Part shown: piece after piece, positions 3,885 through 12,740 of the stretch
Position numbering within the stretch: the first letter of the stretch is position 1
How the letters are laid out: each line of letters opens with the position of its first letter
Assembly (NCBI RefSeq): GCF_003545765.1
Contig: NZ_QXIO01000003.1
Span: forward strand, 372,001 to 436,000
Source: Colwellia sp. RSH04
GTDB taxonomy: Bacteria > Pseudomonadota > Gammaproteobacteria > Enterobacterales > Alteromonadaceae
DNA length: 64,000 nt
Reading direction: 5' to 3'
The notes under the pieces: model-generated
Databases searched by the model: none
Told to the model about the DNA's origin: nothing
Seen by the model: the letters and a program-made list of their open reading frames with translations, nothing else
Program-made: the position numbers and the translations under genes

Positions 3885-4649
3885 TTACAAAGAAATATCA
3901 TGCTCTTGTAATAATTGATGTAAATACTTAACAGGTATAGCATAAGTAATACCGCTCGGCTTTTCGATAACGGCTTCCTTAGTCTCTTGCACAAAGACTT
4001 TATTAATAACGCCAACCACTTCACCTGTTTTTTGATCATACATAGCACTACCACTATTACCCGGATAAGCCGTTGCATCTAACTGGTAAACTAAATATGG
4101 GTTTCGTAAACTCTTTAGCATTTTAATACTAATTTGCCCTGCTGATGGCACGGGCACAATAGTAGGTGTAGTACTAGCAATAATCCCTCGATGAGTTACA
4201 GGATATAGCCCTAGAACAGCACCGATAGGAAAACCAGTAAAAGCAATAGAAGTGCCATCTGGAATAAAGGCACCTTGAGCTAACGTTAGCGCAGGTAATC
4301 GCGCTCCTTCTAATTTAAGTAGCGCCAAATCATAACGCTGAGATGTTGCAATAGTCTCTGCTTGCCTAACTTTAGCTTCTCTACCTGAGCCAATAAAAAC
4401 GGCCATTTTTTGCAATAAGGCATCATCAAGCATTTCAGGTAATACATGTGCATTCGTGACAATATAACTTCCATCACCAATAACAAACCCTGTGCCTCGT
4501 AATACATTCTGCGGCCTGCTAGTAGGTGTATGAGTACCAATACCGACAACAGACGGTTTCACTTTAGCAACAACCGTCACTAAATCAGCCTGACATTGAA
4601 AGCTTACTAGCATAGCAACTAGTACTATCCATTGAACTAAACGTTCCAT
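3885..4649 (-). CDS. Trypsin-like periplasmic serine protease without PDZ domain
   Basis: The 254 residues start with a signal peptide (1-21, cleavage after FQCQA) and form one chymotrypsin-fold domain of the S1C/DegP type. The catalytic triad is visible: His68 in TNAHVL, Asp107 in YDLALL and Ser199 in GNSGS. HtrA/DegP proteases carry one or two PDZ domains after this domain; here the protein ends just after the protease fold (IPVKYLHQLLQEHD). It is therefore a stand-alone protease whose substrates and control cannot be read from sequence. It is convergent with the YibQ-type gene (62 bases apart) and divergent from the patatin gene. Confidence 0.85.
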   Translation of the reverse strand: MERLVQWIVLVAMLVSFQCQADLVTVVAKVKPSVVGIGTHTPTSRPQNVLRGTGFVIGDGSYIVTNAHVLPEMLDDALLQKMAVFIGSGREAKVRQAETIATSQRYDLALLKLEGARLPALTLAQGAFIPDGTSIAFTGFPIGAVLGLYPVTHRGIIASTTPTIVPVPSAGQISIKMLKSLRNPYLVYQLDATAYPGNSGSAMYDQKTGEVVGVINKVFVQETKEAVIEKPSGITYAIPVKYLHQLLQEHDISL

Positions 4650-4855: not shown

Positions 4856-5683
4856 ATGAAAAAAAGCATTGTCCCTATTTTTGCTGGTGGAGGCACAAGG
4901 CTGCCTGCGCATTTAGGGGTGCTCAAAGCATTAGAGATTCTTGATGTTCCTTTTACCGATCTGGTCGGTGTTTCAGGTGGTAGTATTATCGCTAGCTTTT
5001 ATGCCGCTGGATTATCAATTAATGACATCAAAAAAATAGCCTTGCAAACAAACTACAATGAATTTAGAGAGTTTTCTCTGGTTAAATTAATTCGACATGG
5101 GGGCTTGAGTTCTGGGGATGCTTTCGAAAAATGGGTAGATCACCATTTACAAGGTAAAACATTTAGCCAATTATCAATGAAACTTCATGTAGTTGCTACC
5201 GATGTCACTAATGGTAAACCCGTTATATTCGATGCAGAACGTACACCCGATATGAAAGTCTCTCAAGCAGTGCGCTTTTCTATGTCAATTCCACTAGTTT
5301 TTAGTTTTAAACCCTTTGGCAAACGTATTATGGTTGATGGAAGTATTCTTTCAGAAGATGCCTTGCATCGAGATTGGGATCATCAGGGTACACCCGTTCT
5401 ATGTTTTCGATTACGCGGTGAACATGAATACGACAGTTTAAATGTGAATGGTTTCTTTCCAATATTTAATTACGTAACTTTGCTTATTAGAACATTCATG
5501 ACTACTATTTCACGCGAATACATAAATGATACTTTTTGGCATAATACTATTGTAATCAATATAGGTGAGTACTCTGCGGTTGACTTTAAAATGAATAAAG
5601 AACAAAAACATGATTTATACAAAGTAGGATTACAAACAGCCCTAGAAATAGTACCGATTAAACTTGCCTATAAACACACCTAA
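4856..5683 (+). CDS. Patatin-like phospholipase
   Basis: Predicted lipid acyl hydrolase of 275 residues with the Ser/Asp dyad of patatins. The oxyanion-hole region is AGGGTRLPAHLGVL (10-23), the nucleophile elbow is GVSGG with Ser40, and the catalytic Asp160 lies in VDGS. The glycine usually found three residues after GGG is Leu15 here, a variant of the motif. There is no signal peptide, so it is probably cytoplasmic or peripheral to the inner membrane. A strong ribosome site (AAGGAG) precedes the ATG. It is the first gene of a same-strand group with the ligase, decarboxylase, acyltransferase and oxidase genes; supplying fatty acids to them is an inference. Confidence 0.88.
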   Translation: MKKSIVPIFAGGGTRLPAHLGVLKALEILDVPFTDLVGVSGGSIIASFYAAGLSINDIKKIALQTNYNEFREFSLVKLIRHGGLSSGDAFEKWVDHHLQGKTFSQLSMKLHVVATDVTNGKPVIFDAERTPDMKVSQAVRFSMSIPLVFSFKPFGKRIMVDGSILSEDALHRDWDHQGTPVLCFRLRGEHEYDSLNVNGFFPIFNYVTLLIRTFMTTISREYINDTFWHNTIVINIGEYSAVDFKMNKEQKHDLYKVGLQTALEIVPIKLAYKHT

Positions 5684-5732
5684 TCACGAGCCAACTTAAG
5701 CTTCTCTTTAAAGTTTTTACTCAAACAATTAC

Positions 5733-5762
5733 TTGCTTGATACGCAAAATCATTGCCATAAT
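5733..5762 (+). promoter_or_regulatory. Possible sigma-70-like promoter before the ligase gene
   Basis: TTGCTT (5733-5738) and CATAAT (5757-5762) are separated by 18 bases and lie 60 bases before the ATG at 5822. This is a moderate match in AT-rich DNA, and the ligase gene could equally be read through from the patatin gene. Confidence 0.35.
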
Positions 5763-5821
5763 ACCTGTAGGATAATTTTCTACGATTTAGGGCCTTTCGA
5801 TCTAAGTCATCAGGATGATAA

Positions 5822-7414
5822 ATGCTTAACTATATTCATGAACTGATCAGTCAACGTGCTGAGTTAACACCACGTTCAACAGCATTGCAAGTCAAAGAAA
5901 ACAGGCTTAGTTATCAGCAATTACATCTTCAAGTTCAAGAATTCTCTTGCTATCTAGCTCGTTTTTCTAAACCTGAACAACGTATTGGTATCTATCTTAA
6001 TAAAAATATAGAAAATGTTGTCACTATGTTCGCTTGTTCAGTCGCTGAACTCATTTTTGTGCCAATAAACCCCGTGTTAAAGTCTGCTCAAGTTCAACAT
6101 ATTGTTGATGACTGCCAAATTCAGACCTTAGTAACAAACAAAGCAAGGTTGGCAGGTTTAGCTAAGGTACTGCCATCACTAAGCTCAATAGAAAATATAA
6201 TCATCATTGATGCTAATTCAACAGACATTGAAGAATTTTCTGATAATTTTCCAATCATTAATTTCACCGAATGGCCAAAAAACGTAACGGCTATAGAGTC
6301 GAGTCTACCAAAGGGTAGAGATCGCTCTTCTCATGATCTAGCTTGTATTCTTTACACCTCAGGAAGTACTGGTAACCCTAAGGGGATTATGATCAGTCAT
6401 CACAATTTAATTTTGGGTGCGGAGTCAGTAAGTCAGTATTTACAAAACACTGCCAAAGATAAAATTCTTGCCGTACTGCCATTAAGCTTTGATTACGGTT
6501 TAAACCAACTAACCTGCAGTTTTTTAGTCGGGGCACAGTGTATTTTACTTGATTATTTATTTGCTAAAGATGTCATAAACGCAATTGAAAAGTATGATAT
6601 TACAGGCTTAGCAGCTGTTCCTGCTCTCTGGTCACAATTATGTCAAATTAATTGGCAGCAGCAACAAGTAAAGTCTATACGTTACTTTACTAATTCTGGT
6701 GGTGTATTAGCACAGCAGCACCTTGACATATTACGAACTAGAATGCCAAAGGCAAAACCATTCCTTATGTATGGCTTAACGGAGGCATTTCGCTCAACAT
6801 ACCTTTCGCCTGATGAAATAGATAAGAGAGTCGGCTCTATAGGTAAAGCGATTCCCAATGCAGAGATTAAAGTATTACGCTCAGATGGATCAGAATGCGA
6901 TGTAGGCGAAGAAGGTCAACTCGTTCATATTGGCCCATTAGTCACTTTAGGTTATTGGCAGAACCCTGCTAAAACGAAAGAGCGTTTTAAGCCCTATGGC
7001 AATGCCAATAACATTGCCGTGTTCTCGGGTGATTATGTCAAAAAAGATAGCGATGGCTTCTTATATTTTGTTGGCAGACACGATGAAATGATAAAAACAT
7101 CAGGTTATCGTGTAAGCCCTAGCGAAATTGAAGAATGCTTATCTAGCTTAAGCGTAGTATCAACTGCCGTTGTCTTTGGCAAGCCTGATAGTCATTTAGG
7201 CCAATTAATTATTGCGCAAGTTCAATTAGCAGAACAACATAAATCAGCTCATGAGTTAACGGCACTAAAGCAAGAAATTAATCAAACATGCAAAAAACAG
7301 CTTGCTAACTATATGCAACCCCATGAGCTCTATTTTATTGATGAATTTCCAATCAATGCTAATGGTAAAATTGATAGAAATAAAGTGCGATTAAACTACC
7401 TAGCCAACTTGTAA
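5822..7414 (+). CDS. AMP-forming acyl-CoA ligase, exosortase A system-associated type
   Basis: ANL-superfamily adenylating enzyme of 530 residues that activates a carboxylate as an acyl-AMP. The P-loop motif is LYTSGSTGNPKG (177-188), YGLTEAFRSTY marks the A5 region, SGDYVKKDSDGFLYFVGR and MIKTSGYRVSPSEIEE mark the hinge and C-terminal lobe, and NGKIDRNK carries the catalytic Lys. The stretch LPLSFDYGLNQL, the YGLTEAFRSTY region and the hinge resemble, from memory, the family annotated as exosortase A system-associated acyl-CoA ligase (TIGR03098). AGGA precedes the ATG by 6 bases. The decarboxylase gene starts 13 bases later, the usual pairing for this family. The substrate is unknown. Confidence 0.9.
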   Translation: MLNYIHELISQRAELTPRSTALQVKENRLSYQQLHLQVQEFSCYLARFSKPEQRIGIYLNKNIENVVTMFACSVAELIFVPINPVLKSAQVQHIVDDCQIQTLVTNKARLAGLAKVLPSLSSIENIIIIDANSTDIEEFSDNFPIINFTEWPKNVTAIESSLPKGRDRSSHDLACILYTSGSTGNPKGIMISHHNLILGAESVSQYLQNTAKDKILAVLPLSFDYGLNQLTCSFLVGAQCILLDYLFAKDVINAIEKYDITGLAAVPALWSQLCQINWQQQQVKSIRYFTNSGGVLAQQHLDILRTRMPKAKPFLMYGLTEAFRSTYLSPDEIDKRVGSIGKAIPNAEIKVLRSDGSECDVGEEGQLVHIGPLVTLGYWQNPAKTKERFKPYGNANNIAVFSGDYVKKDSDGFLYFVGRHDEMIKTSGYRVSPSEIEECLSSLSVVSTAVVFGKPDSHLGQLIIAQVQLAEQHKSAHELTALKQEINQTCKKQLANYMQPHELYFIDEFPINANGKIDRNKVRLNYLANL

Positions 7415-7427
7415 GCAGCTAAGATGA

Positions 7428-8699
7428 GTGAGTAACATTTTGACAATGAAAACAGATAATAAAACTATGGCACATCAACACAATTTTACTATACAAAATA
7501 ACGCTATTTCAGTGGCTGACCATTCAATTGATCATATTGCCCAAATGCTAGGTGGTACGCCATTTTATGTTTATGATAAACAACAAATTATCGATAGAAT
7601 CGACGCTTTAAAAGTCTTATTACCTCCTCAAGTCAAGTTGCACTATGCAATAAAAGCAAACCCACTGCCAAGCCTAGTACACATGATTGCACAGCATGTT
7701 TCTGGTTTTGATGTTGCGTCAACTCAAGAAATGCTACTAGCATTACAAACCAATATTTCTGCAACAGACATTAGTTTTGCAGGTCCTGGTAAAACAGAGC
7801 AAGACTTACGTTCAGCTATCATAGCTAATGTGACTTTGCATGTAGAATCAACAAACGAATTATCATCTATTCAAACAATTGCGAGTAGCTTGAATAAAAA
7901 AGCCAACATCGCTATTCGCGTAAATCCATTGTTTGAATTAAAAGCTTCAGGAATGAAAATGTCTGGAGGCTCGAAACCTTTCGGCATTGATGAAGAGCAT
8001 ATTGACACCATTCTTCAAGAGATAGATCACACGGTCATCAAACTTTGCGGCTTTCATATTTATTCAGGCTCGCAAAACCTCAATGCCGATGCGCTTATTG
8101 AGTGCCAAAAGCAAACGCTTTCGTTAGCCAATAATCTGGTTTCTTTAGCACAGCAACACAATCATAAACAGTTAATTTACATCAACATAGGTGGCGGCCT
8201 AGGCGTACCATATTTTAGTCATGAAAAACCTTTAGCAGTAGACAAGGTTTTTCAGCATTTAACTTCAGCATTGACCCAATACCAAAGTAACTTAGCTAAC
8301 ATCGAAATTGTTATCGAACTTGGGCGACACTTAGTCGCTGAAGCTGGGTTATATGTCACTAAGGTTATCGACAAAAAAGAATCGCGCGGGCAGCAATATC
8401 TTGTCTGTGATGGGGGGTTACATCATCATTTAGCTAATTCAGGAAACTTTGGGCAAGTGATTAGAAAAAACTATCCTGTAAGGCTTGAGCAACAGCACAC
8501 TCCCATTGATGACTCGACCGAAACCGTCTCGGTAGTTGGCCCTTTATGCACTCCTCTTGATATTTTGGCAGAAAAGGTAACACTACCTACAGCCAACATA
8601 GGAGACTACTTTATTATTTTTCAATCAGGTGCTTATGGTGCATCAGCGAGTCCAGTTAACTTTTTAAGTCAGCCTGCTTTAAAAGAAATTTTATTATAA
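7428..8699 (+). CDS. PLP-dependent decarboxylase, exosortase A system-associated type
   Basis: Fold-type III PLP enzyme of the DAP/ornithine decarboxylase superfamily, 423 residues, with the PLP lysine in HYAIKANPLP (Lys76), the glycine loop NIGGGLGVPY and the late motifs GPLCTPLD and QSGAYGASASP. The phrases DGGLHHHLANSGNFGQV and FQSGAYG strongly recall the family described as exosortase A system-associated pyridoxal-dependent decarboxylase (TIGR03099). It is paired with the adenylating enzyme upstream. The start is uncertain: a GTG at 7428 and ATGs at 7446 and 7467 are in frame, and none has a clear ribosome site. The amino-acid substrate cannot be assigned. Confidence 0.9.
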   Translation: MSNILTMKTDNKTMAHQHNFTIQNNAISVADHSIDHIAQMLGGTPFYVYDKQQIIDRIDALKVLLPPQVKLHYAIKANPLPSLVHMIAQHVSGFDVASTQEMLLALQTNISATDISFAGPGKTEQDLRSAIIANVTLHVESTNELSSIQTIASSLNKKANIAIRVNPLFELKASGMKMSGGSKPFGIDEEHIDTILQEIDHTVIKLCGFHIYSGSQNLNADALIECQKQTLSLANNLVSLAQQHNHKQLIYINIGGGLGVPYFSHEKPLAVDKVFQHLTSALTQYQSNLANIEIVIELGRHLVAEAGLYVTKVIDKKESRGQQYLVCDGGLHHHLANSGNFGQVIRKNYPVRLEQQHTPIDDSTETVSVVGPLCTPLDILAEKVTLPTANIGDYFIIFQSGAYGASASPVNFLSQPALKEILL

Positions 8700-8804
8700 C
8701 AAGGTTAAATAGGTGTATTTTTTGAGCTTATAATACGGCTATCTGCAAGGAAGCAGCTATACTTATATTAGTTAATTTTGTCAGTAGTTTTTATTTTGGT
8801 TGTA

Positions 8805-8832
8805 ACCTAATTTAGGTACAGGATAAACCTGT
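8805..8832. repeat. Two adjacent small inverted repeats upstream of the LuxI-like gene
   Basis: ACCTAA-T-TTAGGT (8805-8817) is a perfect palindrome. It is immediately followed by ACAGG-ATAAA-CCTGT (8818-8832). Together they lie 25-53 bases before the acyltransferase ATG at 8858. They could form leader hairpins or be an operator; their function is unknown. Confidence 0.5.
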
Positions 8833-8857
8833 GTAAATAATATTCTATGGAATAATA

Positions 8858-9676
8858 ATGAATTGGAACAAGCGCCTATTAAAAACTCCCGTCCTTGGTG
8901 ATATCACCAAGAAAATTGTTTCAATTAAAGCAAGCAGAGAAGCGCACAGCATTGCTGATCACTTTACCCAATTTCTGCAACCGCAAATTGCCACTAGCGA
9001 ACAATTAAGAAGTGAGGTATTCAAAATTAGACACAACGTCTATTGTGAAGAACTTGCCTTTGAAAAGATTCAAGCAAATGGTGAAGAAAAAGACGAGTTT
9101 GATGACCAATCAATTTTCTCACTCATTAAACATAAACCTACAGATACTTACACCAGCTGTGTACGCTTAGTAAAAGCTAGCGGCCCTGGGGAAAAACTAC
9201 CCATTGAGAAGTATTGCTTAGATTCAATCACTAATACTAACTTAAGTCCAGAACGCTTTAATCGCGCAGAAATAGCCGAAATATCACGTCTTGCAGTAAA
9301 AGCTGACTTTAGACGACGCCAAGCAGATCAATTTAAAGGCTCTAGCACTGGTGTCATTAGCGAAATTACCTATTCTGAAACTGAATTACGTTGCTTTCCT
9401 TTTATAGCCATTGGCTTATATATGGCAGCTGCTACCATGGGGATGAATACAGGCATTCGACATGTTTACGTGATGATGGAGCCTAGATTAGCTCGAAGTA
9501 TGAAATTTATAGGGATTACTTTTCAACAATTAGGAGCGCCGGTTGAGTATCACGGTTTACGAGCTCCCTATTATATTAGCCCCGATATTTTTATGAAAAA
9601 TTTATCACCGGGATTTAGAAGCTTATATCAAACTATCGAATTAGATATTTGCCAGCAACTCGAACAAGTTAACTAG
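8858..9676 (+). CDS. PEP-CTERM/exosortase system-associated acyltransferase (LuxI/GNAT-like)
   Basis: Predicted acyltransferase of 272 residues, distantly related to acyl-homoserine-lactone synthases. LuxI-like landmarks are LRSEVFKIRHNVYCEELAF (about 46-64), DEFDDQS with the conserved acidic residues, SCVRLVK and EISRLAVKADFRRR. This architecture fits the family described as exosortase-associated acyltransferase (TIGR03694). By family analogy it transfers an acyl group from acyl-ACP or acyl-CoA to an amine; the product is unknown. No exosortase is in the window. It sits 158 bases after the decarboxylase gene and 64 before the oxidase gene on the same strand. Confidence 0.85.
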   Translation: MNWNKRLLKTPVLGDITKKIVSIKASREAHSIADHFTQFLQPQIATSEQLRSEVFKIRHNVYCEELAFEKIQANGEEKDEFDDQSIFSLIKHKPTDTYTSCVRLVKASGPGEKLPIEKYCLDSITNTNLSPERFNRAEIAEISRLAVKADFRRRQADQFKGSSTGVISEITYSETELRCFPFIAIGLYMAAATMGMNTGIRHVYVMMEPRLARSMKFIGITFQQLGAPVEYHGLRAPYYISPDIFMKNLSPGFRSLYQTIELDICQQLEQVN

Positions 9677-9740
9677 AAGTAACTAATACGGACTATTAAC
9701 TCGCCCTCTACTGCATTAGACATAATTATGGAGCTTATGA

Positions 9741-11411
9741 ATGTCAGCAACACTACTGAAAACTCTTGAAGAAAACTTATCAAATTCAACCATAATCTCT
9801 AATGACAAAGCTGTATTAAATATCTACCTTCAAGGCACAGAGGGATTAGAAAAGTTAAACGGAAAAAATCGTGAACTTATTGCTGTAGTGAAAGTAGCAG
9901 AAGCGAACGATATCAAATTACTGTTAGATTTAGCGAATAAATTAGCAACGAATCCTAAAGAAAAATTTACTCTTTATCCGATTAGTACAGGAAATAATTG
10001 GGGTTATGGCACTAGTCAGCCTGCTAGTTTAGAAAAAAATATTATTTTAGTAGATTTAAGTGCGTTAACCACGATTAGCGAATTTGATCATACATTAGGA
10101 TTAGTGACACTTGAGCCAGGGGTAACCCAGCAGCAACTCAGCGATTATTTACTGCAACATAACTATGATTATATGGTTCCAGTGACAGGCGCTGGCCCTA
10201 ACTGTTCAATATTAGCTAATGCCTTAGAAAGAGGTTATGGCATTACACCTTATACCGATCATTTTGGTGCGGTAATCAGCATTCATGGTTACTGGGCTGA
10301 TGGCACCCCTTTTCAATCAGCGATTTGTGAACTTGATAAATCAACGGACAAATTTGTTGATAAAACCTTTAAATGGGGCTTAGGACCTTATTTAGATGGT
10401 TTATTTACCCAATCAAATTTTGCTATAGCGACTCAAATGACTATTCGGTTAGCTAAATTAAAACCCGAATTTACTTCATTCTTTATTCAAATTGAAGATG
10501 ATGCATTGCTTGAAAAAGTGATTCCATTAATTCGTCAAACATTACAAGATTATGAAGGCATAGTAGGTTCAATTAATCTCCTTGATCAACGGCGTATTCT
10601 TTCAATGTTCGCTAAAAACCCTCATGCAAGTAAGCAATATAATTTAACGTCTAATGAAGTGAACATGTTAGCAAAACAACAAAATGCCCCTTGCTGGACT
10701 GTTATTGGTAGTATCTATGGTAGTAAAGGTGTTGTTAAGGTCGTTCAAAAAGAGGTTGATACAATATTCAAACAAATACCGTGTAAGCGCATTTTTTCAA
10801 ATAGCCTTTTGATTACTCTGCCTAAAAAAATCATTAATTTAATACCTCGATGGCTAATTAAACGAGTTAATTTGCTATCGATGGCAGCCGAACAGCTAGA
10901 TTCTTTTGATAAGGGCAAAGAAATAATGCTTGGTAAGCCGAATACTGTTGCTTTAAAGCTTGCCTATTGGCGCCATAATAACGCTGCATCGTTTGATAAA
11001 AGCAGCTTGTCACCTAGTGAAGATAGCTGTGGTTTATTATGGTATGCTCCTTTAATAACGATGAAAGCAAGCCATATGCGTGAATTTGTCTGTTTTGTTC
11101 GCGACGTTTGCCCAAAATACTCTATTGAACCTTTTATCACTTTCACAAATTTAAGACATGACTGTGTCGATAGCACAGTACCTATCGTTTTCGACTCATC
11201 CAACCCTCAGGCGGTTAAAGATGCACATGCGTGTTTAAAAGAGTTAGTGACCATCGGTCTCACTAAAGGCTTTGTTCCTTATAGACTCAATATAGATCAA
11301 CAACAATGGTTGCTCGATGAAAAAACTGATTTTTGGCAAACAGTAAATAAGCTCAAAAAAGCGCTTGATCCTAACGACATTCTTAGCGTAGGACGTTATA
11401 ACCCAAGATAA
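9741..11411 (+). CDS. FAD-binding oxidase/dehydrogenase (PCMH/vanillyl-alcohol oxidase type)
   Basis: Flavoprotein of 556 residues. The N-terminal FAD-binding PCMH domain (about 45-240) contains YPISTGNNWGYG (79-90), LVTLEPGVTQQQL and VPVTGAGPNCSILANALERGYG. The C-terminal substrate domain ends in KKALDPNDILSVGRYNP, the usual end of vanillyl-alcohol-oxidase-like enzymes. There is no signal peptide or membrane segment. The substrate is unknown. As the last gene of the ligase/decarboxylase/acyltransferase group, with a hairpin terminator right behind it, it probably oxidises an intermediate or product of that pathway; this is inference from context. Confidence 0.85.
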   Translation: MSATLLKTLEENLSNSTIISNDKAVLNIYLQGTEGLEKLNGKNRELIAVVKVAEANDIKLLLDLANKLATNPKEKFTLYPISTGNNWGYGTSQPASLEKNIILVDLSALTTISEFDHTLGLVTLEPGVTQQQLSDYLLQHNYDYMVPVTGAGPNCSILANALERGYGITPYTDHFGAVISIHGYWADGTPFQSAICELDKSTDKFVDKTFKWGLGPYLDGLFTQSNFAIATQMTIRLAKLKPEFTSFFIQIEDDALLEKVIPLIRQTLQDYEGIVGSINLLDQRRILSMFAKNPHASKQYNLTSNEVNMLAKQQNAPCWTVIGSIYGSKGVVKVVQKEVDTIFKQIPCKRIFSNSLLITLPKKIINLIPRWLIKRVNLLSMAAEQLDSFDKGKEIMLGKPNTVALKLAYWRHNNAASFDKSSLSPSEDSCGLLWYAPLITMKASHMREFVCFVRDVCPKYSIEPFITFTNLRHDCVDSTVPIVFDSSNPQAVKDAHACLKELVTIGLTKGFVPYRLNIDQQQWLLDEKTDFWQTVNKLKKALDPNDILSVGRYNPR

Positions 11412-11427
11412 AATAGAAGCCCACAAA

Positions 11428-11451
11428 AAAAGCTGCCATTTGGCAGCTTTT
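11428..11451. terminator. Bidirectional rho-independent terminator
   Basis: Perfect 11-base arms AAAAGCTGCCA (11428-11438) and TGGCAGCTTTT (11441-11451) are flanked by an A-run on one side and a T-run on the other. The hairpin lies between the stop of the FAD oxidase (+) and the stop of murA (-) and can end transcription in both directions. Confidence 0.85.

Positions 11452-11474: not shown

Positions 11475-12740
<1,266 letters not shown>

Follow-up and report, generated by a model that had tools for sequence, protein, structure and literature searches.

A cluster of five genes on the forward strand of a 64,000-nucleotide window from Colwellia sp. RSH04 (the whole stretch analyzed, G000:C23:372001-436000, where G000 is this genome and C23, C32 and C52 are contigs of it) appears to be the separated edge of a dispersed system of exosortase A (XrtA), PEP-CTERM proteins and exopolysaccharide (EPS) genes. 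It encodes a patatin-like lipase, an AMP-forming ligase, a pyridoxal phosphate (PLP) decarboxylase, an N-acyl amino acid synthase (NAS) and a flavin adenine dinucleotide (FAD) oxidase of the vanillyl-alcohol oxidase/p-cresol methylhydroxylase (VAO/PCMH) type (Table 1). We posit that the system has two modules here, the ligase with the decarboxylase and the NAS with the oxidase, and that the oxidase replaces a ThiF-dependent route acting on N-acyl tyrosine; we give this reading a probability of roughly 0.6. An earlier note on this DNA had recognized the five same-strand genes, and the family models of all five open reading frames (ORFs) score over cut-off, including the curated cut-offs of TIGR03098, TIGR03099 and TIGR03694, to which it had referred the ligase, decarboxylase and acyltransferase. 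It had also taken the cluster for an orphan, stand-alone pathway, and here the genome as a whole says otherwise.

The local absence of an exosortase, a PEP-CTERM protein or a carrier, on which that view leaned, is real: a genome-wide search returned no match to PF09721, PF07589 or PF00550, respectively, on the window's contig, C23. Genome-wide it does not hold, as the same search found one PF09721 match, eight PF07589 matches over cut-off (10 listed) and four PF00550 matches, all on other contigs. The sole exosortase match lies on C32; its full gene scores 326.7 bits with the exosortase A model TIGR03109 (cut-off 208) and sits in a long EPS locus with TIGR03013, TIGR03006, TIGR03019, TIGR03087, TIGR03088, TIGR03108, TIGR04063, TIGR03097, TIGR03007, TIGR03027, TIGR03018, TIGR03016, TIGR03015, PrsR and PrsK, each over cut-off. 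A third locus, on C52, codes for PrsT, hydrolase 1, a hydrolase-2-like protein (189 bits, under the cut-off of 203), an 83-amino-acid carrier, a GNAT-fold protein and a phosphomannomutase-like protein. The genome thus has exosortase A, EPS genes and PEP-CTERM motifs, and its XrtA system is spread over the three loci on C23, C32 and C52. The 'orphan' label fails because the exosortase, the PEP-CTERM proteins and the carrier exist elsewhere in the same genome. Neither the ligase, decarboxylase and NAS profiles nor the carrier query matched in the 80 kb around the C32 exosortase; the NAS is single-copy in the genome, and so is the decarboxylase at scores over cut-off. An EPS locus elsewhere in the genome that lacks these genes is what the earlier note had named as refuting its stand-alone reading. 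Nine relatives have the NAS and an exosortase no more than 20 kb apart (G009, G011, G013, G018, G019, G022, G043, G045 and G046; the exosortase of G011, the one tested of the nine, passes the general exosortase model and fails TIGR03109), and a PrsT homolog adjoins the NAS in 10 examined loci. An exosortase match occurs in 48 of the 52 genomes that have an NAS over cut-off among the 79 compared, the remaining four being drafts of 260, 260, 180 and 130 contigs. As a separate observation, two more adjoining carrier proteins and a weak ligase-profile match (41 bits) lie in another gene cluster on C52 (G000:C52:146758-147232, L110).

The carrier on C52 would supply the element that the earlier note had found wanting. 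That note was correct that no gap within the cluster could house a carrier: the intergenic distances are 138, 13, 158 and 64 nt, which, with no PF00550 match on C23, rules out a concealed carrier gene. In trans, a C52-type carrier (counted at E <= 1e-9, which drops one weaker match, G040 at 4.1e-4) is present in 26 of the 27 genomes with TIGR03099 over cut-off, G027 being the exception, and in 0 of the 52 others. On a core tree of 38 genomes the decarboxylase label changes nine times, and the carrier follows it in 7-8 of 8 independent pairs (p 0.008-0.016); in G020 the decarboxylase gene is fragmentary and interrupted by a stop codon, and the carrier was not found. In G062 the carrier, two hydrolases, a tetratricopeptide repeat (TPR) protein, the NAS, the decarboxylase and the ligase all stand in one place, and in G047 the carrier adjoins the ligase. 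Within 1.5 kb flanks, some truncated by contig ends, hydrolase 1 adjoins the carrier at 20 of 26 loci and the GNAT-fold protein at 17 of 26. The decarboxylase has as its closest solved relative BtrK, the L-glutamyl-[BtrI acyl carrier protein (ACP)] decarboxylase (7ru7/2j66; E 7.5e-74, the next molecule reaching 1.9e-47), and with its co-inherited carrier it is a putative BtrK-type enzyme. The ligase is closest among solved structures to the amino-acid adenylation domains of peptide synthetases and then to a prolyl-carrier ligase.

We infer the substrates, the products and the cellular role of both modules. In the first, the ligase would adenylate an amino acid and load it on the carrier encoded on the other contig, and the BtrK-like decarboxylase would remove CO2 from the residue while it is carrier-bound. 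The decarboxylated aminoacyl group so made on the C52-type carrier may then be used or trimmed by the products of the carrier's neighbors (hydrolases 1 and 2 and the GNAT-fold protein), perhaps in decorating EPS. A glycerol-3-phosphate-acyltransferase-like gene, a call resting on Pfam for the G053 copy, follows the decarboxylase in G053 (L093:7586-12908, ligase also present) and G059 (L094:875-4704), two genomes with the carrier and without an exosortase match or an NAS over cut-off.

The second module is held together by the pairing of NAS and oxidase. Around 80 oxidase loci, taken from 364 relatives of the oxidase, an NAS match falls within the examined flank at 74 and a ThiF match at none. 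The oxidase has the VAO/PCMH fold; its closest relative among the matches listed is from Litorilituus lipolyticus (82%), followed by those of Colwellia species, and its relatives include p-cresol methylhydroxylase, eugenol oxidase and 4-ethylphenol oxidase. By alignment, its phenolate-site residues are Y89, Y514 and R515, invariant in 20/20 and in 80/80 relatives; we take them to be the Tyr/Tyr/Arg site by way of PCMH residue numbers. Cys430 is likewise invariant in 80/80 relatives, and is found in 19/20 rows of another alignment. A PEP-CTERM protein gene adjoins the oxidase-NAS pair in 23 loci (Marinobacter among the rows listed), the tested copy, L208:8676-9497, scoring 34 bits with PF07589.

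Beyond this pairing, the oxidase alternates with a ThiF protein. The 52 NAS genomes carry the oxidase (E <= 1e-20) in 29 cases, the ThiF protein (E <= 1e-30) in 22, both in none and neither in one (G031, 76% complete), and neither partner occurs in the 27 genomes without an NAS over cut-off. In relatives without the oxidase, a ThiF gene lies no farther than about 10 kb from an NAS gene, and directly adjoins it in many. The oxidase is in pieces in G005, about 9 kb from the NAS in G040 and on a different contig from it in G062. In the Colwellia sp. RSH04 genome there is no ThiF homolog at E 1e-30 (the nitroreductase was not searched genome-wide), and membership in a ThiF/oxazolone cluster is rejected on the ground that the genome has no ThiF homolog of that kind. 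On a tree of 69 NAS rows, made by a quick method and with long branches, the oxidase/ThiF label changes 10 times, eight of them forced by supported branches. These rows are NAS proteins of at least 230 amino acids from the 79-genome set together with 15 of the 80 oxidase loci, picked to thin near copies; G018 (136 amino acids, at a stretch end) and G060 are omitted, and labels were given by genome for the 79-genome set and by adjacency for the 15 loci, among which the genomes of L174 and L176 hold both partners. That exosortase (PEP-CTERM) bacteria have in the VAO/PCMH flavoenzyme a second, unrelated means of oxidizing N-acyl aromatic amino acids, one that has repeatedly traded places with the ThiF/nitroreductase route next to the same type of synthase, has in our estimation even odds of being true.

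In such a module the NAS would acylate an amino acid, most likely an aromatic one, with a fatty acyl group, tyrosine being favored because the oxidase has a phenol site; tyrosine as the substrate of both enzymes is a guess from that site. The flavoenzyme would take a hydride from the benzylic carbon of N-acyl tyrosine to give a p-quinone methide, which may tautomerize to the 2,3-dehydro product, N-acyl dehydrotyrosine. The VAO-type enzyme would thereby take the place that ThiF(-nitroreductase) has in related clusters, without being homologous to it.

The separate distribution of the modules bears on whether the genes might instead serve a single pathway. Among the 52 NAS genomes the decarboxylase accompanies the oxidase in 17 and ThiF in 6, while 12 have the oxidase and 16 ThiF without a decarboxylase, and G031 has none of the three; four of the other 27 genomes have a decarboxylase without an NAS over cut-off. 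In G020, G033 and G038 a short ligase/decarboxylase remnant stands beside an intact NAS-oxidase pair, and the carrier search of the 79 genomes found no carrier in these three. The remnant ORFs are L064:11007-11588, L075:8623-9138 and L081:10656-11069, respectively, and the one tested is a fusion of the ligase's start with the decarboxylase's end. Such assortment rules out one linear route running ligase, decarboxylase, acyltransferase, oxidase, as the earlier note had drawn it from acid adenylation through decarboxylation and amine acylation; its last step, oxidation of an N-acyl product, was probably right. A stand-alone, carrier-free version ending in an N-acyl amine would agree with the local lack of exosortase, PEP-CTERM and carrier matches, and is nonetheless very improbable given the carrier inherited in trans with the decarboxylase, the decarboxylase's closeness to an ACP-dependent enzyme, the XrtA system in the same genome and the separability of the modules; we reject the orphan pathway since that exosortase system and the co-inherited carrier exist in the genome. 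The modules could also feed one product, the NAS acylating or using the carrier-bound decarboxylated residue or its amine to make one lipid wherever all the genes are present. Gene order speaks for this: the five genes stand together in this genome and 12 relatives, with one additional ORF between patatin and ligase in G029, a co-occurrence whose absence would, by the earlier note, have refuted its reading, and the order ligase-decarboxylase-NAS-oxidase recurs without the patatin in three more. The separate assortment, the decarboxylase genomes without an NAS and the remnants beside intact pairs speak against it, and we consider a joint product improbable.

A further alternative keeps both modules and changes what the oxidase makes: beta-hydroxylation or oxidative decarboxylation to an enamide, both by way of that quinone methide, or action on another phenol or amine. 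Members of the VAO/PCMH family can hydroxylate, dehydrogenate or desaturate 4-alkylphenols, and several observations that favor such an outcome count against our reading as well. Gly150 occupies the position of the VAO catalytic acid/base Asp170, and is Gly in 80/80 relatives; Asp170 does not define the whole VAO/PCMH family, as its place seems to be taken by Thr in the Novosphingobium VAO (9fge is titled a T181D mutant). Among oxidase loci with no nearby NAS, the genomes of five were searched, and four of these, all Shewanella, gave no TIGR03694 match. A gene of 320-344 amino acids directly precedes the oxidase in Shewanella without such a match (L195:4769-5803, L196:4781-5743, L197:4745-5743), its tested copy having no Pfam match; it could be a divergent acyltransferase. 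In characterized relatives, the alternating partner, ThiF, is part of a route by which N-acyl Tyr is desaturated, and therefore the same reaction is favored for the oxidase, so that a different oxidase product strikes us as somewhat unlikely.

Other points weigh against the two-module, ThiF-replacing reading itself. No covalent-flavin residue was identified in the oxidase, where the loop between two aligned stretches is unaligned, and known NAS enzymes use several amino acids. The partner label changes twice only on a core tree of 37 labeled Colwellia-type genomes, and so the counts over 79 genomes do not stand for independent cases. Exclusion is not absolute either: among 50 non-Colwellia oxidase genomes, 31 have a ThiF match, three of them strong (E 2e-95 or better; in one, ThiF is beside a second NAS) and 28 weak (90.4 bits or less), the weak ones being taken as general ThiF/MoeB-like paralogs and left uncounted, and 19 have none. 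A nitroreductase-type gene follows or is fused with ThiF in five examined ThiF loci only (clusters c56 and c70), two checked by Pfam and one scoring with the Rv1355c and PRK14851 models; in places the ThiF partner may therefore be less than a complete ThiF-nitroreductase pair. As for the first module, the 1e-9 carrier threshold was chosen once the table had been seen, the absence of a second ligase covers the 80 kb round the exosortase, TIGR03098 not having been searched genome-wide, and G053, G059 and G077 carry decarboxylase and carrier without an exosortase match, and therefore this module is not strictly XrtA-bound.

The NAS passes the FeeM Pfam model PF21926 narrowly (28.9 bits, cut-off 27.0), and the patatin is also found in ThiF-type relatives. 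The terminator that the earlier note had placed at the cluster's end is borne out by a hairpin that none of 200 shuffles folds as well as; its T run is of four T only, and a simple terminator scan did not list it. The upstream neighbors are a divergent HtrA/trypsin-like gene, gpmI, envC and a polysaccharide deacetylase. The protease cluster is represented in 45 of 65 compared stretches and lies inside the examined flank at 48 of the 80 oxidase loci; it is possibly a further member of the conserved neighborhood or system. A gene of this kind is also near the patatin/NAS where gpmI-envC is outside the examined stretch (G040, G042, G043, G044, G055 and G062).

Table 1. The cluster and its boundaries, in window positions.
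Feature	Position	Strand	Support
HtrA/trypsin-like protease, divergent neighbor of the cluster	3885..4649	-	PF13365 80.6 bits
Patatin-like phospholipase/lipase, 275 amino acids	4856..5683	+	PF01734 103.3 bits, cut-off 27.7
AMP-forming ligase (module 1), predicted aminoacyl-[carrier] ligase, 530 amino acids	5822..7414	+	TIGR03098 686 bits, curated NCBIfam cut-off 592
PLP decarboxylase (module 1), BtrK-like, predicted substrate a carrier-bound aminoacyl group, 423 amino acids	7428..8699	+	TIGR03099 550 bits, cut-off 478
NAS/PEP-CTERM/exosortase-associated acyltransferase (module 2), 272 amino acids	8858..9676	+	TIGR03694 269 bits, cut-off 112
VAO/PCMH-type FAD oxidase (module 2), predicted N-acyl (aromatic) amino acid oxidase/desaturase, 556 amino acids	9741..11411	+	FAD_binding_4 PF01565 42.5 bits, cut-off 26.4
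Terminator hairpin between oxidase and convergent murA	11428..11451		10-bp stem, -15.5 kcal/mol, z -5.1
murA, system boundary, outside the system	11475..12734	-	TIGR01072 595 bits

To our knowledge, of what the exosortase-locus ligase, decarboxylase and acyltransferase make, the NAS reaction alone is established. The phyletic data offer a testable partner, the carrier encoded elsewhere, and a testable reaction in which an N-acyl aromatic amino acid undergoes phenol-type oxidation. That two unrelated oxidative partners exchange next to the same type of synthase points to a shared product and hence, for many marine bacteria, to a common role of oxidized N-acyl amino acids in their surface biology; if this is true, an oxidized N-acyl aromatic amino acid would be a regular product of XrtA-type bacteria, reached via two chemistries. 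More generally, dispersed loci can make a cluster look like an 'orphan' when one window alone is read. The link of NAS to exosortases is already known, and the VAO-type oxidase partner appears to be the new element; no paper describing a VAO-type enzyme in the biosynthesis of N-acyl amino acids turned up in a literature of partial coverage, with most subscription journals outside it.

Several known systems share parts of this arrangement. From vanillyl-alcohol oxidase, p-cresol methylhydroxylase and eugenol oxidase the cluster's oxidase differs in its identity of about 20%, its Gly at the Asp170 position and its pairing with an NAS, and no cytochrome subunit gene is among the cluster genes. 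BtrI, BtrJ and BtrK act in butirosin biosynthesis, BtrJ being an ATP-grasp enzyme; the present decarboxylase is closest to BtrK in sequence and has a co-inherited carrier, whereas the ligase is an ANL/adenylation-domain enzyme and not BtrJ, the carrier is on another contig and there is no aminoglycoside context. NAS genes were reportedly linked to PEP-CTERM/exosortase loci by Craig, Cherry and Brady in J Bacteriol in 2011. As in those loci, a TIGR03694-type NAS is here tied to an XrtA system, but it stands apart from the exosortase and with a VAO-type oxidase as partner. Thalassotalea is in the same family as the source organism. Later papers state the NAS-exosortase link (PMC7293339) and cite the 2011 paper (PMC11631085, PMC4897644). 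ThiF/nitroreductase-type enzymes are described as desaturating and cyclizing N-acyl tyrosine or tryptophan in characterized pathways (PMC10404671, PMC12856293) and are proposed for the thalassotalic acids of Thalassotalea and others (PMC12479983). The OxzAB/TyzACB/TrzAS acyl-oxazolone pathways and the clusters for thalassotalic acid, kyonggic acid and stieleriacine (PMC10404671, PMC12856293, PMC12479983) share with ours an N-acyltransferase coupled to oxidative tailoring of an N-acyl aromatic amino acid; where they have a ThiF homolog, of a kind that this genome lacks, an unrelated FAD enzyme of the VAO/PCMH type stands in its place.

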